In this document: positions 31,398 to 41,786 of the stretch, piece after piece
How positions within the stretch are numbered: the stretch's first letter is position 1
How the letters are laid out: each line of letters begins with the position of its first letter
Assembly: GCF_016888135.1 (NCBI RefSeq)
Contig: NZ_JACSWB010000113.1
Location: 1 to 64,000, forward strand
Length of the DNA stretch: 64,000 nucleotides
Direction of reading: 5' to 3'
From: Leptolyngbya sp. CCY15150
Lineage (GTDB): Bacteria; Cyanobacteriota; Cyanobacteriia; RECH01
Translations under genes and position numbers: made by a program
The notes under the pieces: generated by a model
Seen by the model: the letters and a program-made list of their open reading frames with translations, nothing else
Told to the model about the DNA's origin: nothing
Database searches by the model: none

Positions 31398-32162
31398 ATG
31401 CATTATTTAAACCAACTATCGCCCAGCAAGCGAGGCTACGCCCTAATCAATCGCTCCATCCACTGGCTCTCTAAATTCCTGGTAAAAGACTGGGATCGCC
31501 GTCTGCTCGGGCTTTCTAGTCTACCCATTCATTCCATCTTGGATATTGGAGCCAATGAGGGACAGTTCTCCAAACGGATGCGATCGCTCTTTCCTGATGC
31601 TCAGATCTATGCCTTTGAACCCTTGCCCGATGCCCTCAAGGTTTTAAACGCCTGGGCCAAGACCCAGCGGGGAACGGTGCAGGTGTTTGATGTGGCTTTG
31701 GGGGAAACAGAGCAGGTGTTGGCCCTTCAGCACCATTTGTATTTCAGTGCCTCATCCTCCCTGCTGCCCACCACCGCCCTGGGTGAGGAGGTCTATCCAA
31801 TCATGAGTCGGCAGCAGCCCATCTCCGTGACCCAAACCACCTTGGATGGAGCGATCGCCCAATTACCCCAGTTTCCCCAGCCCGACGTTCTGATCAAGCT
31901 GGATGTGCAAGGCTATGAAGATCGGGTGATTCGAGGCGGTCTGCAAACCTTTGCCCAGGCCAAGGCCTGCATCGTCGAGATTTCCTTAGATGCGCTTTAT
32001 GATGGGCAAGCGACGTTTCAGACCATTTTTGAGCTGCTGAGCGGTTTGGGCTACAGCTACTGCGGTAACCTAGACCAGATTCAGGCTCGGGATGGTCATG
32101 TGATCTATTTCAATGCCCTGTTTATCAATACCCACCCTACCCTACCCCATCATGCGCGTTGA
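31398..32162 (+). CDS. FkbM-family methyltransferase 1
   Basis: The 254-residue protein has the Rossmann-like SAM-binding core of FkbM methyltransferases: SILDIGANEGQFSKRM (motif I, about residue 50), IYAFEPLPDALKVL (motif II) and VLIKLDVQGYEDRVIRGG, the FkbM hallmark. FkbM enzymes O-methylate sugars or polyketides and are common beside exopolysaccharide genes. The second FkbM gene starts within its last codons (overlap of 11 bases), so the two are translationally coupled. No glycosyltransferase is adjacent, so the acceptor is unknown. Confidence 0.85.
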   Translation: MHYLNQLSPSKRGYALINRSIHWLSKFLVKDWDRRLLGLSSLPIHSILDIGANEGQFSKRMRSLFPDAQIYAFEPLPDALKVLNAWAKTQRGTVQVFDVALGETEQVLALQHHLYFSASSSLLPTTALGEEVYPIMSRQQPISVTQTTLDGAIAQLPQFPQPDVLIKLDVQGYEDRVIRGGLQTFAQAKACIVEISLDALYDGQATFQTIFELLSGLGYSYCGNLDQIQARDGHVIYFNALFINTHPTLPHHAR

Positions 32163-32970
32163 AGCTTGCTGTACCGCTTTGCTGAAGCAGATCCTGCCGA
32201 CCCTTGATCCCCAGCGTCAGGGGCTTTGTTTAGATGTCGGGGTTGGCACCTTCGCCTTCTACTGCCAAATGTTTGCCCAGCTCGGGTTTTCCACCATTGC
32301 CATTGAACCCTTACCCATCCCCAAACTGCGGCAGATCTGTCAGCGCCACCATATTCAGTTGCTAGAAACCTGTTTATCCAATCAAACAGGCACGCAGACC
32401 TTCTATGGCGGTCAGTTTGCCCGCCTAGGCAATCAGAACTTTAACTCTCTGGCACCAGACTGGTTTGGCTCATCAGCACGGAGCCAGCAGGTACCCACCA
32501 TCGATCTACCTGACTTGATGGAGGCGATCGCCGCCCAGCAGATTACTTGCCTAAAACTGGATATTGAAGGCTGGGAACCGGTGGTCATCCAGCAGTTTGC
32601 TGACCTCCCCGCCTCGCTCTTACCCAAGGTCACCATGTTTGAATATGGCGGCGGCACCGATCGCCAAGCGGGAGCCAAGGGCTGGGCACCCAAGTTCCTC
32701 GAAGGCACCATGCAATGCCTCACAACCCTCCAGCAGCGCGGGTATGGGCTGAGTATTATGGTGGACTATTGCCACGGTACCGATGTCAATGTGTTTGACC
32801 TACAAACCATGGACCTCAATCCAGCCAACGTGTTTCCCCCCAATGCCGTCTATGGCAACATCATCAGCTTCTATGAAGGTAGCTATCCTCAGGAAGCGAT
32901 CGCCCAAATCTGCCAGCGCTACCGTGGTGGGGTGATTAACTGGTTGGTGAGCCAGCTTGTATCGACCTAG
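32152..32970 (+). CDS. FkbM-family methyltransferase 2
   Basis: The 272-residue protein shows the same family marks with a different sequence: GLCLDVGVGTFAFYCQMFAQ (motif I), IAIEPLPIPKLRQI (motif II) and ITCLKLDIEGWEPVVIQQF (FkbM hallmark). The ATG at 32152 is chosen because it begins at the expected distance before motif I and overlaps the end of FkbM 1 by 11 bases. The two proteins are clearly diverged, so they may act on different positions of one acceptor. Confidence 0.82.
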   Translation: MRVEACCTALLKQILPTLDPQRQGLCLDVGVGTFAFYCQMFAQLGFSTIAIEPLPIPKLRQICQRHHIQLLETCLSNQTGTQTFYGGQFARLGNQNFNSLAPDWFGSSARSQQVPTIDLPDLMEAIAAQQITCLKLDIEGWEPVVIQQFADLPASLLPKVTMFEYGGGTDRQAGAKGWAPKFLEGTMQCLTTLQQRGYGLSIMVDYCHGTDVNVFDLQTMDLNPANVFPPNAVYGNIISFYEGSYPQEAIAQICQRYRGGVINWLVSQLVST

Positions 32971-34833: not shown

Positions 34834-37557
34834 CTAGGGCGTAGAAGACTGGACATGACTGATGCCTCGACTGCCCCAGGTTTGCAGCAGTTGAACACCT
34901 GACCAAAAGGCAATACCACCCAAGACACCGACACCGAGGTGAATGATTGGAGATTCTAGCCCTACCTTATTCGCTAGGCTGAAGAAGCCTACATGGGTTA
35001 GATAAATGTAGTATGATGCGGCACCAATCATTTGCATAGGCAAAATCAATAGCTTTGGTATGACCACATGCTTTTTCCAGATGATCAATGTCCCACCCAT
35101 CAACAACCAAATGATCTCTGATGGAATCAAATCTCTTAGGGTCAAAACAGACAAGACATAGATGCTGGTAACGGCCATACGCTGTATCTTAGTCTTGGTG
35201 AAATAAGCTGTCCAGCCCAAAAGAAATAGCCATAGCATCATATGGGGAACTCGATGGTACAAGTCAGCCGTATCCCAGACATGGGGGCCCACACAAGCCA
35301 TAACCCCAGTGATTCCCACAAGGGATAGGGAAAATCCCCAGGGACTAGCATCAGCGGTCTCCCGTAGCTTACGGATACTAAACAGCAGCACTAAAATTAC
35401 TACACACTGCACAAATACTTGAATAAACCATACCTGCAAAAACATCGTCATCACCTCCGGCCCCATGAAGTTGCTAACCATCAAGAGGGAACCAATGCTG
35501 AAATCTTGGGTATAGACTTGGAAGAAAGCCTCTAAGATAAGGTATGGAATAATCAGGCTGCTGAGTAGCGAAGTCAGAATCTGCTTCTGGTTGCCCTGGA
35601 ATAAGTTATGGCTCTGAAACCGAGCAAAGTTAAGACCAGCAATAAACAACAGCAGCAACGCTCCTCCCTGAACATAGGGTAATGGAACCAAGCGAGCATG
35701 ATTTGCTACCACACCGCAGATGGCTAAAGCCCGCAGCAAGATATTGGTTTCAATGATAGGAAATGCGCTACGCTTCTGGGGTTGTTGATCAAGTTCGGCA
35801 ATGGTCATGCTCTCCCAGTCGGAGGGAACGTAACCCAGATGGCGTTCTAGCTCGATGGAAAATTGGACGTAGAGGAGGGAGTGCCCTCCCAAGGAAATGA
35901 AGGTATCTTCTAAATCTAGGCGCTGGAGATGAAAGGCTTTACAAAAAATAGCCTGAATGGGCGTGTCAGCTTGAACATCTGCTGAGGACTGCGCCTCTAG
36001 GCTCGATGGTTTGATCAGGCCTCGACGATCGAGCTTACCGGATGGGGTTTGGGGTAGAGCATCCAAGTCTACGAACAGGGCCGGTACCATATAGTCTGGC
36101 AGATGCTCGCCTACAAATGTTCGCAGGTCTTGATGCCAGCGGCTGGTCGATTGATGGGAAGGTTGGGGGACAACATATCCCACCACTACTGTGTCACCCG
36201 TGGGAGAGTCATGGGCAGCGATCGCCGCTGCTTTGACCGTAGGATGCTGCTCTAGGGTAGCGGCAATTTCGTCTAATTCAACGCGCATCCCCCGAATTTT
36301 GACCTGAAAGTCCGTGCGCCCCAAAAGTTCTATGCAGCCATCAGGGGAGCAACGAGCTAGGTCTCCAGTTTTAAAGAGACGAGATGGCCCATGGGCCCAT
36401 GGTTGGTCAATAAATTTCTCTGCTGTGAGATCCTCACGGTTCATGTACCCGTGGGCTAAACATCCACCTGCCATATGGAGTTCGCCCACCTCGCCATCAG
36501 AGACGGGATGGAGATGCTCATCCAAAATATAGGCTTGGTTATGGGGGTATGGATAGCCAACCGGTACATAGCCCTGGTGCTGATCAAAACTAGACGGTAC
36601 TAGGTAGGCAGTATTGCCAATGGTTTCTGTTTGCCCATACACGTTAGCAAACTGAACGCGATCGCCGAAAAACTGGCGGAGATTATGCAGTAGGATACAG
36701 GGCGTTAGCTCTCCTGAGAGGATCAAGAAGCGCAGGTTGAGTTCAGACGCTTCCAGTCGCAGTTCAGCCGATTCGTTGATGATTTGCAGTGCATAGCGCC
36801 AGATGGATGGAACGCCATCAAAAATAGTGACGCGCTGCTGTCGCATCAGGTGCAGGAGGTGGATCGGATTTTTAGTTTGATCACGGGTGGCAATGACAAC
36901 TGTGGCACCTGCCATAAGGGGCAGAAACAGTTGCCGCACTGACGATGAAAAAGAGAACGAGGCAACGTGTAAATAGATATCCTGGGTCTGCACTGGAACA
37001 AGTTGATGCAGTGCGGTGATATATCGCACAATGTTGGCCCGGGGCATCTTCACGCCTTTAGGTTTGCCCGTAGAGCCAGAGGTATACATGACATACGCCA
37101 AGTAATCGGCATTTAGCTCAAGCGTTAGGGGCTCCCGACTCTCTTGGGCGATCGCATTCCAATCGGTGTCTAGGCAGATCAACTGAGTGGCAGGTACATG
37201 GGGAAAGCGATCGCGTAGATCGGTGTGAGTTAACACAATCGATAGCTGCGTCTCTTGGGCGATGAAGTGAATGCGATCGCTTGGATAGTGAGGATCTAGG
37301 GGAACATAGGTCAACCCAGCTTTGAGGATACCGAGCATAGCCACCACCATCTCGATGGAGCGATCGAGATAGATGCCAACGAGGGCATTGGGCTCAAGAT
37401 GGGCGTGGTGGAGATAGTGGGCTAGCTGGTTAGAACGCTGATCTAGGTCATGGTAGGTCAGTTGGCGATCGCCGCAAACTAAAGCGATCGCAGTGGGAGG
37501 ACGCTCTGCTATGGTTTGCAGCAGCATACACAAAGGATGAGTGATAGGTTGAACCAT
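34834..37557 (-). CDS. NRPS-like adenylation-carrier protein fused to membrane acyltransferase
   Basis: The 907-residue protein has three parts. Residues 1-515 are an adenylation domain: A3 YTSGSTGKPKG (158-168), A5 NVYGQTE (305-311), A7 FKTGDLARC (395-403) and A10 PSGKLDRRGL (505-514). Residues 530-595 are a carrier domain with LGGHSL, Ser560 taking the phosphopantetheine arm. Residues 605-907 hold about ten membrane helices of the acyltransferase-3 family, with the candidate catalytic His620 in VVANH. There is no condensation or thioesterase domain. In A4 (FSFSSSVRQ, 201-209) the Asp that binds the substrate amino group is Ser, so the substrate may not be an alpha-amino acid. I infer that an activated acyl group is passed to a membrane or outside acceptor. 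The ATG at 37557 fits the domain start. It has no biosynthetic neighbours. Confidence 0.85.
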   Translation of the reverse strand: MVQPITHPLCMLLQTIAERPPTAIALVCGDRQLTYHDLDQRSNQLAHYLHHAHLEPNALVGIYLDRSIEMVVAMLGILKAGLTYVPLDPHYPSDRIHFIAQETQLSIVLTHTDLRDRFPHVPATQLICLDTDWNAIAQESREPLTLELNADYLAYVMYTSGSTGKPKGVKMPRANIVRYITALHQLVPVQTQDIYLHVASFSFSSSVRQLFLPLMAGATVVIATRDQTKNPIHLLHLMRQQRVTIFDGVPSIWRYALQIINESAELRLEASELNLRFLILSGELTPCILLHNLRQFFGDRVQFANVYGQTETIGNTAYLVPSSFDQHQGYVPVGYPYPHNQAYILDEHLHPVSDGEVGELHMAGGCLAHGYMNREDLTAEKFIDQPWAHGPSRLFKTGDLARCSPDGCIELLGRTDFQVKIRGMRVELDEIAATLEQHPTVKAAAIAAHDSPTGDTVVVGYVVPQPSHQSTSRWHQDLRTFVGEHLPDYMVPALFVDLDALPQTPSGKLDRRGLIKPSSLEAQSSADVQADTPIQAIFCKAFHLQRLDLEDTFISLGGHSLLYVQFSIELERHLGYVPSDWESMTIAELDQQPQKRSAFPIIETNILLRALAICGVVANHARLVPLPYVQGGALLLLFIAGLNFARFQSHNLFQGNQKQILTSLLSSLIIPYLILEAFFQVYTQDFSIGSLLMVSNFMGPEVMTMFLQVWFIQVFVQCVVILVLLFSIRKLRETADASPWGFSLSLVGITGVMACVGPHVWDTADLYHRVPHMMLWLFLLGWTAYFTKTKIQRMAVTSIYVLSVLTLRDLIPSEIIWLLMGGTLIIWKKHVVIPKLLILPMQMIGAASYYIYLTHVGFFSLANKVGLESPIIHLGVGVLGGIAFWSGVQLLQTWGSRGISHVQSSTP

Positions 37558-38859
37558 AGTTGTCAAAGAAGGAAACTTTCTTGAGGTAGATGAACAGCAG
37601 CCTGCCAAGATAGCCGGATAGATGCCAACCCAAAATTACCTTAGCCCCATAGCACTAATGGAGATAAGATTAGCAATAGTGCCTAGAATCTGACAGCAGA
37701 GCTGTTAGCAAGGCATGAATAATGTGACAGCAATTCTCCTATTTGTCACGACGACGATCTTATTTCTTCGTGAACTGGATTCACAGAGAGTCTCAGAGAC
37801 ATATATCTCTGGATCGTCAGGTGTAGCCTACTCTGCCCATGGAGTTCAACAACAAGTAGGTTGAATAGCGCTAACGTCTATTCCTTGTATCTATTGAGCA
37901 TCATTAAGCCTGGCTTATGCCTATCTATCGTTTTCGACCATTAAGATGATCATGACAACTAGTAGATTGACCTGATTTATATCGTCATAGCTCTCGTACC
38001 GAGGGCACTCTAATCAGTTAAATGTCGTTGTTATGCAGTTAGTCTATAAACACCTCTAAGTTGACGTTGAACAGCTACCTTAAGGTTCCCAGTAATTCCC
38101 GCCAAGTAACGGCTAAATTGATCATCTACAAACAACGCTAACGAAAACTTCACACTAGCTTGATACCTCACTCCGGATATTAGAAATAGAGACAGCTAAA
38201 GCACAACTTAAGGCTGTAGCACCATCTCTTTTTGAATGATTCATCCATATAGCATAGAGATTCCGCAATCTCTCTCAAGGAAGTCTCCCTCGAAAAAAAG
38301 CTTGAACAGCAGGCCATATCAACGTCGGTTGAACGTTCATGGCTAGAATATCCTGCATTTAATCCCCTACTGAGCTGCTCTCTTTAAGCAGGCTAAAGAC
38401 ATCTAGGTATGGCCAAAGTCTTGAATGCCTAGAATGTCCAACCGGATTTGATATCAATGCACTATCACGAGATAGCTGAAGTTTATGGTATGCCCAATCT
38501 TTGATGACCTGAACCAAGTCACTTTTACCCCAAACGCTTTGCCCATAGGGCGAAGGGCTTAGAACGTAATGACTTATGGTTTGTACAAAAGAAGGCCAAT
38601 AAAGGTTTATATAACGAAGCGTGTGGGGGTGGAACTAGTACACTCCCACACCAACGTGAACCAAGTGAACAATTGACGTTTAAGTGGAAGGACGCAACGC
38701 CTAGCAAGCCTTTCGATGTTACTCAATGCTCAAACCCTAAGGAGAAGGGGATTGAGCGTCGTTGAAACCCAGTAGCCTCGCTTCATTTCATTGAGTCCGC
38801 TTACGTATGATCACCCTAGAATCTTCTCTGCCATTGAGATTGCATGATGCATGGCTAGA
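37558..38859. other. 1.3-kb gene-free stretch with repeat fragments
   Basis: I found no credible gene here. At 38621-38651 GTGTGGGGGTG and CACTCCCACAC form a near-perfect hairpin. At 38407-38458 there is a block ending CAACCGGATTTGATATCA that resembles the element at 16077-16209. At 38743-38774 there is an inverted copy of the GGGTTTCGAC/CGCTCAACCC motif. Upstream of the adenylation gene the DNA is A/T-rich. It may be decayed coding DNA or host unannotated RNA. Confidence 0.45.
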
Positions 38860-39846
38860 CTAAACCGAAGCAGTTTTGCTGACACTGTTGCCTAGATTTG
38901 GACTGGATACCTGTCGTCGTACGGCTCGAAACATACCAAATCGACAAAGTCCTGTACCAAAGGCTAATCGCATCAGTAAAAGGGTGGGCACCTCGCGGAT
39001 AGACTTTACGAAGCCAGCAGGGCCAAATTTGACGAGCCCGGCAGGACGAATGATACCTTGCCAAATAGAATCTAGCCAGGAGGGTAGGGTTTGTTTCGAC
39101 CAGTCTGCTGTATCCACCGTGCCCTCTACCAACCCCGTTGCCATCAACTGCTCTGAGAATCCTTCAATGCTGGCAAATTCTGGATGAGACCATTGGTCGA
39201 GCAGTTGGCGCATGACTGGCTTTTCCCAAACATTAAGCGGTTTACGGCGATCGTCCCGCTGGTTCCAATCAGCCACCACCAGAACTCCGCCGGGCTTCAG
39301 CACCCGCAGTAATTCTCTGGCAAAGACTGCCTTATCTGGCATGTGGGGCCCGGCTTCTACCGACCAAACCACGTCAAAGCTAGCATCAGGAAACGACAGC
39401 GCCATGGCGTCATCGACCTTAAATTGGGCGGTGATGCCGTCGGGGGTGAGTTGACGAGCACGGTTGACCTGCTGGGGGCTGATGGTGACCCCGGTGACGT
39501 CAAAACCATAGTCCCGCGCTAAAATTCGACTGCTGCCACCAATCCCGCACCCCACATCGAGAAGCGTGGTGCCGCGAGGTAATTGATCCAACCGCCCCCA
39601 ACGCACCATCTCATGGACAAAGTCGATCTTGGCGGTGAGGAAGTCCTTGCGGCGGGGTGGTGATCCGTAGTGACCTAAGTGGATATGCTCTCCCCAGTAA
39701 AATTCCAGGATGCCGTCTTCTGTCCACTGGTCGTAGGCATTCGCCACCGAATCGGCGGACTGATAGCGGCGAGCCGTCACCAGATAGAGAATAATGCCCA
39801 AGACAAGCAGTCCAAGAAGCAACCCGATCGCAGAAAATAAACCCAT
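38860..39846 (-). CDS. MPBQ/MSBQ methyltransferase (Sll0418-like)
   Basis: The 328-residue protein is very close to Synechocystis Sll0418, the 2-methyl-6-phytylbenzoquinol / 2-methyl-6-solanesylbenzoquinol methyltransferase of tocopherol and plastoquinone synthesis. It has an N-terminal membrane anchor (about 5-24), then YQSADSVANAYDQWTEDGIL, YWGEHIHLGHYG, SAM motif I TLLDVGCGIGGSSRIL, ISPQQVNRARQL, FDVVWSVEAGPHMPDK and the long helical tail WQGIIRPAG to FGTGLCRFGMF. It would add a methyl group from SAM to the quinol ring at the membrane. The gene stands alone, in line with dispersed quinone genes in cyanobacteria. Confidence 0.9.
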   Translation of the reverse strand: MGLFSAIGLLLGLLVLGIILYLVTARRYQSADSVANAYDQWTEDGILEFYWGEHIHLGHYGSPPRRKDFLTAKIDFVHEMVRWGRLDQLPRGTTLLDVGCGIGGSSRILARDYGFDVTGVTISPQQVNRARQLTPDGITAQFKVDDAMALSFPDASFDVVWSVEAGPHMPDKAVFARELLRVLKPGGVLVVADWNQRDDRRKPLNVWEKPVMRQLLDQWSHPEFASIEGFSEQLMATGLVEGTVDTADWSKQTLPSWLDSIWQGIIRPAGLVKFGPAGFVKSIREVPTLLLMRLAFGTGLCRFGMFRAVRRQVSSPNLGNSVSKTASV

Positions 39847-40036: not shown

Positions 40037-40744
40037 ATGTTTCATCTTGATGCCCAACCCTATGCCTATCCCCTACCGGGCGATCGCTCCCTAGCCCTGG
40101 TGATTATTGACATGCAGCGCGATTTCTTAGAGCCCGGTGGCTTTGGGGATGCCCTAGGCAATGATGTCAGTCTGCTCCAGGCGATTGTACCCAAGCTCAA
40201 AACCCTGCTCGACTTCTTTCGCGCCCACCATCTGCCGGTCATTCATACCCAAGAATGCCATCAGCCCGATTTGTCCGACTGTCCTCCCTCCAAGCGCGAT
40301 CGCGGTAACGGTACGCTGAAAATTGGTGATCAAGGCCCCATGGGACGCATCTTGGTCTACGGTGAACCCGGTAATCAAATTATCCCGGAACTGGCTCCGC
40401 AGCCCAACGAACAGGTGATTACTAAGCCTGGGAAAGGTGCTTTCTACAACACACCCCTGCAAACCTACCTACAGCAAGCTGGTATTACCCACCTGCTGTT
40501 CACCGGGGTGACCACCGAGGTATGCGTACAAACCACCATGCGTGAAGCGAATGATCGCGGCTATACCTGTCTGATGGTGGAGGATTGCACGGAGAGCTAT
40601 TTTCCTGCGTTTAAGCAATCGACCCTGGAGATGATCCGGGCCCAGGGGGGCATTATCGGCTGGACAGCAACGGCCGATCAGGTACAGTCTGGTCTAACCC
40701 CATGGCTAGAAGCGTTAACAGTCGGAGGTGCTCATGCGGGTTGA
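40037..40744 (+). CDS. Isochorismatase-family amidohydrolase (biuret hydrolase-like)
   Basis: The 235-residue protein is a cysteine hydrolase with the Asp-Lys-Cys triad: Asp in [14 protein letters not shown], Lys in [12 protein letters not shown] and Cys in [22 protein letters not shown]. In this family are isochorismatase, nicotinamidase, RutB and biuret amidohydrolase. The next gene, whose start codon lies inside its last codons, encodes a cyanuric-acid-hydrolase-family protein. In bacteria that use cyanuric acid, the ring-opening product becomes biuret, which a protein of this type cleaves to allophanate and ammonia. The pairing is the main reason for this name; ureidoacrylate or another amide is possible. 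Confidence 0.82.
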
Positions 40745-41786
40745 TGTCTTCAAAATTCCCCAGGCTGGGCCAGATGATGTGTCGGGGCTTCATCACCTGA
40801 TTCAATCGGGAGCGATCGCTCCCCAGCAGATTGTGGGCGTTCTTGGCAAAACCGAGGGTAATGGCTGTGTGAATGATTTCACGCGCGGCTTTGCCACTCA
40901 GTCTCTCAAGGTTTATCTAGCCAAATATCTATCTCCTGAGGCGATTCAGGAGATCGTCTTTGTCATGTCTGGCGGTACAGAAGGGGTGATCAGCCCCCAT
41001 CTAACGGTCTTCACCCGCCAACCGGATGATCCCCAGCGATCGCCCCGTCTTGGCCTTGTATTAGGTACCGCCAGGACCCGTCCCTTTTTGCCCCGGGAGA
41101 TTGGTACCATGACCATGGTAACCACCGTGGCCGCGGCGGTTCAGGAGGCGATCGCAGACGCCGGTGCCGCTGCAGAGCAGATTCACTTTGTCCAAATCAA
41201 ATGTCCGTTGATGACCGCCAGCCAACGGTCTAGTCAGGCAGAGGTGGTGCAGATTAGCAGCTATCAATCCATGGCCCTGTCCCGGGGCGCATCGGCATTG
41301 GGGGTGGCGATCGCCCTCGGTGAATTGTCCCTCAACGATCTCCAGGAGCCCGATATTGCCCATAACTTTGATCTATATTCTGGGGTAGCCTCAACCTCCG
41401 CCGGAGTGGAATTACAGAACTGCGAAATTATGGTGTTGGGCAATGCTCCCTGCACCAGCGCCTACGTCATCGGCCACAGCGTTATGGATCATGCGCTCGA
41501 TGTGGAGGCGGTTCGCCAAGCCATGGCTCAAACAGGTCAAGGGAGCGATCGCATGGTTCAAATTCTCGCAAAAGCCGAAGCTTCTCCCACGGGACAGATT
41601 CTGGGTCGCCGCCATACTATGCTGGATGACTCTGATATCAGCCACACGCGCATGGCCCGCGCTGTTGTTGGGGCAGCGATCGCCTCTGTTGTCCAGGATC
41701 CCATGATTTACGTATCTGGCGGCAGTGAACATCAAGGGCCGCCGGGTGGAGGGCCTGTGGCAGCGATCGCCTGTTTAGACGAATAA
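40734..41786 (+). CDS. Cyanuric acid hydrolase/barbiturase family, canonical
   Basis: The 350-residue protein has the three-fold repeat of ring-opening amidohydrolases with every Ser-Lys pair present: Lys39 ([10 protein letters not shown]) and Ser79 ([12 protein letters not shown]), Lys156 (QIKCPLMT) and Ser222 (ASTSAGVE), Lys280 (ILAKAEAS) and Ser328 ([15 protein letters not shown]). The middle pair is catalytic in AtzD-type enzymes. These open cyanuric acid to (carboxy)biuret or barbiturate to ureidomalonate. The ATG at 40734 is preceded by GGAGG at the right spacing and overlaps the isochorismatase-like gene by 11 bases. No allophanate hydrolase or urease gene is in the window. Confidence 0.88.

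Follow-up and report, generated by a model that had tools for sequence, protein, structure and literature searches.

In the Dlt system for D-alanylation of teichoic acid, a cytosolic carrier protein receives its cargo from an adenylation enzyme, after which a membrane acyltransferase with many helices conveys the bound group toward an acceptor in the envelope, and a comparable relay of adenylation enzyme, carrier and acyltransferase, ending on an envelope lipid, is described for AlmE, AlmF and AlmG in the glycylation of Vibrio lipopolysaccharide (PMC3783018). OafB, OatA and HGSNAT, which share a 10-helix fold, the R-x10-H motif of AT3 and a helix-9 tyrosine, are described with a model of transfer through the membrane (PMC9833829, PMC12423673). 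Here we report on a gene of the cyanobacterium Leptolyngbya sp. CCY15150 that joins an adenylation (A) domain, a peptidyl carrier protein (PCP) and an AT3 membrane acyltransferase domain in a single chain. The gene lies at 34834..37557 on the minus strand of the 64,000-nucleotide stretch that was analysed (contig NZ_JACSWB010000113.1, positions 1 to 64,000; hereafter the window). We consider it reasonably probable that its product is a self-loading membrane acyltransferase, i.e. a one-chain counterpart of the Dlt and Alm envelope-modification systems.

Domain organization and predicted fold

Read from the ATG at 37557 to the stop codon at 34834-34836, the gene encodes 907 amino acids; the mechanically called open reading frame (ORF) begins at a TTG at 37608, and the ATG was used for the analysis. 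The A domain core (residues 14-371, 36445..37518, minus strand as for all parts below; Pfam PF00501, 6.4e-83) scored 396.5 bits with the NCBIfam amino acid adenylation model TIGR01733 (1.2e-118; curated cut-off 317.4 bits), and is thus of the nonribosomal peptide synthetase (NRPS) type. It is followed by an AMP-binding_C subdomain (residues 430-508, 36034..36270; PF13193, 2e-10) ending with the catalytic Lys508 (GrsA 517), a lysine found in 42 of 42 aligned rows. The PCP (residues 534-576, 35830..35958; PF00550, 3.6e-5, 24.4 bits against a cut-off of 20.8) retains the phosphopantetheine serine, Ser560 (35878-35880), likewise in 42/42 rows, and two matches to phosphopantetheinyl transferase families were found in the same genome.

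The C-terminus (residues 596-907, 34837..35772) was assigned through its relatives and its predicted structure. The window protein was aligned with 41 proteins from 40 of the 80 loci described below. In the AT3 alignment (A5, 41 rows), PF01757 was matched at E ≤ 0.01 in 39 rows (best 1.3e-13), and the R-x10-H motif of AT3 helix 1 (Arg609 to His620, 35698..35733) was present in all 41. AlphaFold modelled the C-terminal 312 residues as a single compact helical fold (pLDDT 93.3, pTM 0.91). When this model was aligned with 487 chains using VIA, the top nine rows were HGSNAT-type entries and GWT1 (Z 10.1-13.6), with the next row at 6.4: six HGSNAT-titled entries together with 8jkv and 8jl4 (titled 'membrane proteins') all gave Z 12.8-13.6, and GWT1 gave Z 10.1. 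Entry 8jkv is HGSNAT according to PMC12423673, where OafB and HGSNAT are compared with Z 13.2. The best HGSNAT match (Z 13.6, root-mean-square deviation 4.7 over 267 residues) places the predicted model in the TmAT 10-helix fold; a fold search with the whole-protein model was, as expected, dominated by A domains. Because of the PF01757 matches across the alignment, the model confidence and the HGSNAT and GWT1 Z scores, the assignment of the C-terminus as an AT3 domain of 10 predicted helices is sound on the predicted model. The domain order A-PCP-AT3 without a condensation or release domain, first proposed in a sequence-only reading of this DNA, is hence borne out by Pfam, NCBIfam and the predicted AT3 fold.

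A protein family with exchangeable A domains

The same sequence-only reading regarded the architecture as an orphan, which was wrong. A collection scan with the PCP-AT3 half returned 359 pattern matches and 319 confirmed relatives, from cyanobacteria, proteobacteria and actinobacteria, and 80 loci were kept (L011-L090). The match lay within one ORF in 80/80 loci (79 ORFs of 783-1144 amino acids, and L056 cut by a contig end), a figure that is partly given by construction since the query held both PCP and AT3. Among 386 sampled cyanobacterial genomes, a sample that left out the genome of locus L099, the PCP-AT3 half was detected in three (E ≤ 0.001), the window's own genome included.

Three types of A domain were found joined to homologous PCP-AT3 units, each with a nearly constant substrate-pocket code. 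Clade 1, of NRPS type, consists of the window protein and L014, L016 and L099 (SSRD[IV]S[VI]G[NV]K), the latter three being full-length cyanobacterial proteins from other genomes, with the pocket pattern kept in all four. Clade 2 has a shorter A domain (cyanobacteria and Parabeggiatoa; SFGSSYHR[ST]K), and clade 3 comprises actinobacteria, alphaproteobacteria and others ([SC]YS[ASP]TAMARK). A copy in the genome of another family (G495) is approximately 70% identical to the window protein over its full length, so the A-PCP-AT3 gene is not a product of chance or decay. In Candidatus Parabeggiatoa, two A-PCP-AT3 genes stand in tandem (L013, 1157-3751 and 4051-6498), the first with a divergent carrier motif (ALGMDSLLS) and a divergent AT3 half.

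Clades 1 and 2 were grouped together by the AT3 tree (92/96), while the split between them was weak (58/62). A tree built from A domains of NRPS type placed the window domain in a fully supported set of 10 (100/99) that includes the A-PCP-thioesterase protein L100 (SSRDISVGNK) as well as the first A domains of NRPS proteins (L103, SSRDISVGVK; L102, L104, L129 and L130, TARD[IV]GIG[NH]K); the window code SSRDISVGNK recurs where a thioesterase or a condensation domain comes after the A domain. Since such close relatives of the A domain sit in thioesterase or NRPS proteins, it was apparently recruited from NRPS stock onto an existing PCP-AT3 unit. Both the alignment and the trees show PCP and AT3 staying joined while the A domain changes.

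Substrate pocket of the A domain

Pocket codes were obtained by column mapping at the code positions listed in PMC12283262, and control NRPS domains treated by the same column mapping gave ordinary-looking codes, e.g. DAWFLGNVVK and DLTKIGHIGK. The code of the window A domain is SSRDISVGNK. Its A4 motif FSFSSSVRQ (residues 201-209, 36931..36957) provides Ser204, Ser205 and Arg208 at positions 235, 236 and 239, respectively, and Asp247 (36817..36819) occupies position 278. The replacement of Asp by Ser that had been noticed in this motif is therefore correct. Asp235 and Lys517 are reported for all alpha-amino acid-activating domains (PMC12283262); the window protein has Lys at 517 but Ser at 235, and does not conform to that class.

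From the serine, the sequence-only reading had argued for a substrate other than an alpha-amino acid. Ser235 stands, but by itself it says little, and it is Arg239 and Asp278 that point to a distal carboxylate. An arginine at 239 is common to the window code and the published aminoadipate code DPRHLALLAK (PMC12283262), and ACV synthetase adenylates aminoadipate on its delta-carboxyl (PMC7147772). For these reasons, Arg239 may hold the distal carboxylate of the substrate, which we offer as a lead and not as an assignment, and the combination of Ser235 with Arg239 and Asp278 would point to a dicarboxylic or a side-chain-activated amino-dicarboxylic acid, and not to just any acid outside the alpha-amino acids. 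The code SSRDISVGNK is identical in the A-PCP-thioesterase protein L100 (9063-13867), which has a fused LeuD-LeuC/homoaconitase-like gene 348 bp downstream of it. A search of the open-access literature with the pocket codes as strings returned no paper. The genome of the window encodes another strong NRPS-type A domain with Ser at 235 (L111 / L123, contig C120; code SIFHSGICMK), followed, as judged by eye, by a PCP and a thioesterase-like C-terminus.

Acyl-donor site of the AT3 domain

The acyl-coenzyme A (CoA) site of TmAT is described as being formed by conserved residues: helix 1 supplies Asp and Arg (DxxR), helix 2 Phe and Gly (FxxxxG), helix 3 the first Arg (RxxR), helix 6 a Gly and helix 9 a Tyr, the latter placed around the mercaptoethylamine end of acetyl-CoA (PMC12423673). 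In simulations of OafB, the RxxR Arg74 and Arg14 contact the 3'-phosphate of CoA (PMC9833829). Across the 41 AT3 rows, Arg609, His620, helix-2 Gly641 and helix-6 Gly781 were each retained in 41, and Tyr852 (35002..35004), the counterpart of the helix-9 tyrosine (PMC12423673), in 38. Conversely, the helix-1 acid was found in 0/41, a Phe at 636 in 1/41 and the first RxxR Arg in 0/41 at the aligned place; neither DxxR on helix 1 nor RxxR on helix 3 was found in the window protein.

The depletion was also visible against control AT3 proteins when one regular expression was applied to both sets: the helix-1 acid (at R-3) was present in 0/41 family members vs 15/29 controls, FxxxxG in 7/41 vs 25/29, and RxxR..P in 2/41 vs 16/29, in a control set from which 5 of 34 loci had been dropped for want of a suitable R-x10-H and in which at least one retained member (L145) looks like a wrong frame. 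The RxxR comparison was made with MAFFT and this count, since a profile comparison of alignment A5 with the canonical AT3-SGNH-like protein of the genome gave no confident alignment (probability 7.3, 62 columns). As a statistical pointer, the nucleotide end of the donor site would seem to be eroded and the pantetheine end kept. Such a pattern fits a carrier-bound donor, because a PCP brings phosphopantetheine but no 3'-phospho-ADP, and would suggest that the AT3 domain uses a PCP-bound rather than a CoA-bound donor. It is suggestive only, as the controls are far from uniform and clade 3 mostly keeps one helix-3 arginine (see below).

Genomic neighbourhood

Glycan genes were found beside relatives in clade 2. 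Among the neighbours selected for scanning, L106, L017 and L018 adjoin glycosyltransferases, a standalone AT3, a WecG-type transferase, an O-antigen ligase and a flippase-like protein; by eye, no glycan genes of this kind were seen in the neighbour list of L011. In clade 3, a Polysacc_synt_2 protein and a sugar 4,6-dehydratase-like protein lie near the gene of L022 (Phenylobacterium). An iron transporter was noted by annotation in three of five plasmid loci opened (L007-L009).

The nearest genes in the window encode an RhlE-like helicase, two FkbM methyltransferases, another methyltransferase and a biuret/cyanurate hydrolase pair. The two FkbM-family genes overlap (31398-32970, plus strand), as do those of the hydrolase pair (40037-41786, plus strand). 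Of this pair, the biuret amidohydrolase-like protein scored 253 bits, short of its cut-off of 370, and the cyanuric acid amidohydrolase 472.9 bits, exceeding its cut-off of 360; together they possibly serve s-triazine ring degradation in a cyanobacterium. Upstream of the A-PCP-AT3 gene, some 1.25 kb (37609-38859) hold no listed ORF and have a GC content of 43% vs 51% for the window; no Rfam match was obtained for 37500-38900, and blastn detected no similarity between the upstream region and that of the approximately 70% identical ortholog.

Proposed mechanism and alternatives

The mechanism that we infer from the domains, their intact conserved residues, the AT3 fold of the predicted model, the family and its A-domain swapping is the following. 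In the cytosol, the A domain would adenylate a small acid that has a further carboxylate at a distal position, either a dicarboxylic acid or one of Asp, Glu and aminoadipate activated via the side-chain carboxyl, and load it onto the phosphopantetheine arm borne by the PCP in the same chain. This arm would then enter the AT3 pore, where His620 would take part in handing the acyl group on to an acceptor on the outer side of the membrane. This acceptor would probably be a surface glycan or lipid, a glycan being suggested because the clade-2 relatives sit in cyanobacterial glycan clusters. The earlier proposal that a loaded group is passed to a membrane-side acceptor is kept as the best reading, and the domains it called for are present. 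As a more tentative generalization, which we hold to be possible but short of probable, the family may consist of AT3 enzymes that take acyl groups from a fused phosphopantetheine carrier reaching into the pore, so that any acid that an A domain can load could be exported to the surface. At least three kinds of A domain have become attached to the same PCP-AT3 unit in evolution, and the window version would handle a dicarboxylic or side-chain-activated amino-dicarboxylic acid, putting a charged group on the cyanobacterial surface.

Several observations weigh against a self-loading acyltransferase of the envelope. AT3 was absent from the Pfam report on the whole 907-residue protein, PF01757 staying below its cut-off of 31 with 21.3 bits in the genome search and 23.2 bits (E 4.3e-5) when the C-terminus was searched alone, and a Foldseek search of the PDB with the AT3 model gave no significant match. 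A close relative from genome G052 (L004, 22-2439 / L106, 9705-12122) has Gln where the aligned members invariably have the AT3 histidine. At the donor site, the second RxxR Arg is Ser in the window protein and Arg in 24/41 rows of the MAFFT alignment, mostly from clade 3, and the controls themselves often are without CoA-site features (acid missing in 14/29, RxxR..P in 13/29). For the pocket, the pairing of Ser235 with Arg239 has no exact match among known codes, the published aminoadipate code keeping Asp at 235. With regard to the acceptor, only relatives that carry other A domains, and not the NRPS-type copies, provide the link to glycans: an all-against-all frame comparison of the four NRPS-type loci revealed no shared neighbour, only the gene itself and two matches of 30-32% over 135-149 amino acids. 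With no neighbour conserved, the earlier suggestion that the protein might suffice to modify a lipid or glycan is an inference. Finally, an iron ABC transporter lies near the gene in 16/80 scan loci, all actinobacterial by title, counted when the locus held ORFs resembling each of the three components of the iron ABC transporter from Rhodococcus (L032, L033, L035, L037, L038, L042, L044, L055, L057, L058, L062, L063, L068, L071, L075 and L085), which suggests a role of the actinobacterial A-PCP-AT3 genes in iron supply or envelope iron binding.

The iron-transporter loci also bear on an alternative in which a small alcohol, an amine or a lipid receives the acyl group from the PCP by way of the AT3 domain, making the protein a compact synthase of a secreted or membrane-dissolved natural product; a siderophore gene might well be found in such surroundings. 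MdmB and Asm19 act on antibiotics. They and CmmA are standalone AT3 proteins that use acetyl-CoA in vitro (cited in PMC9833829), and the A-domain clade of the window protein otherwise starts NRPS proteins or ends in a thioesterase. Nevertheless, no conserved biosynthetic gene stands beside the window gene, and in several genomes its nearest relatives in the AT3 tree are surrounded by genes for glycosyltransferases, an O-antigen ligase and flippase-like proteins, so that we regard a small-metabolite product as unlikely.

It is still less credible that the AT3 domain uses acyl-CoA like other AT3s while the A-PCP half makes or carries something else, e.g. the acceptor. The TmAT superfamily is described as one of acyl-CoA enzymes (PMC12423673, PMC9833829), and Arg609, the counterpart of the OafB Arg14 that meets the CoA phosphate in simulations, is kept. 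However, PCP and AT3 share an ORF in all 80 scan loci, if partly by construction, whereas their A partners change, and the other CoA-site features are depleted relative to the controls.

An iterative homopolymer synthetase, comparable to those for poly-epsilon-lysine or poly-diaminopropionate, would account for the layout of A domain, PCP and transmembrane C-terminus with no classical condensation or thioesterase domain, but those enzymes have three soluble C-like domains between their membrane helices (PMC4668381). The 312-residue C-terminus of the window protein, a single compact AT3/TmAT fold with R-x10-H, leaves no room for such tandem domains, and this very improbable candidate was rejected. 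Equally improbable is a degenerate relic whose odd A pocket reflects loss of function: the gene is rare in the phylum and has no conserved neighbours, but full-length copies in three other genomes, one of them approximately 70% identical, a pocket pattern kept in all four and intact catalytic residues led us to reject it, and a chance fusion was rejected on account of the full-length copies in other genomes.

Comparison with known systems

Should the protein be a self-loading membrane acyltransferase, a single polypeptide would both select its substrate in the manner of an NRPS and transfer the acyl group through the membrane, work that is divided among several proteins in known systems, and the donors of AT3 enzymes would widen beyond acyl-CoA. 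Cells would thereby have a single-gene, swappable means of decorating surface glycans or lipids. Meaning would also be given to hundreds of 'AMP-binding protein' annotations, including those near actinobacterial iron transporters. The actinobacterial and alphaproteobacterial A-PCP-AT3 proteins, annotated only in this manner, have the same domain order as the window protein and a homologous PCP-AT3 half (approximately 27-35% identical), and differ in their type of A domain and its code, and in often lying near an iron ABC transporter.

In function, the closest parallels are provided by Dlt and Alm, in whose manner the window protein would work while being a member of neither. DltA, DltC, DltB and DltD form the same relay from adenylation through a carrier to a membrane acyltransferase as is proposed here. 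However, they are separate proteins, with DltB in MBOAT and DltA taking D-alanine, whereas the window protein is one chain with a predicted AT3 fold and no Asp235; the DltA model scored 269.7 bits on it against a cut-off of 559.85, which places it outside Dlt. The Alm system differs in consisting of three proteins, in the LPLAT domain of AlmG and in its substrate, glycine. OafB, OatA and HGSNAT use acyl-CoA donors, and the fusions described for such enzymes, where there are any, are to SGNH, alanine racemase or NRF domains (PMC9833829, PMC12423673), with others also named in PMC9833829; the window protein, by contrast, has A and PCP fused to AT3 and lacks several features of the CoA site. Neither paper uses the terms AMP-binding or carrier protein in its main text. 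The poly-epsilon-lysine and poly-diaminopropionate synthetases likewise place A and PCP before a membrane region in one protein, although that region, in place of a single AT3 fold, consists of 6-7 helices and, among them, three soluble C-like domains in tandem (PMC4668381). No description of an A-PCP-AT3 fusion was found in the titles and abstracts of the open-access literature searched. The parts of the protein are of known kinds; their combination, with an apparently carrier-adapted AT3 domain and exchangeable A domains, was not found described in that literature.

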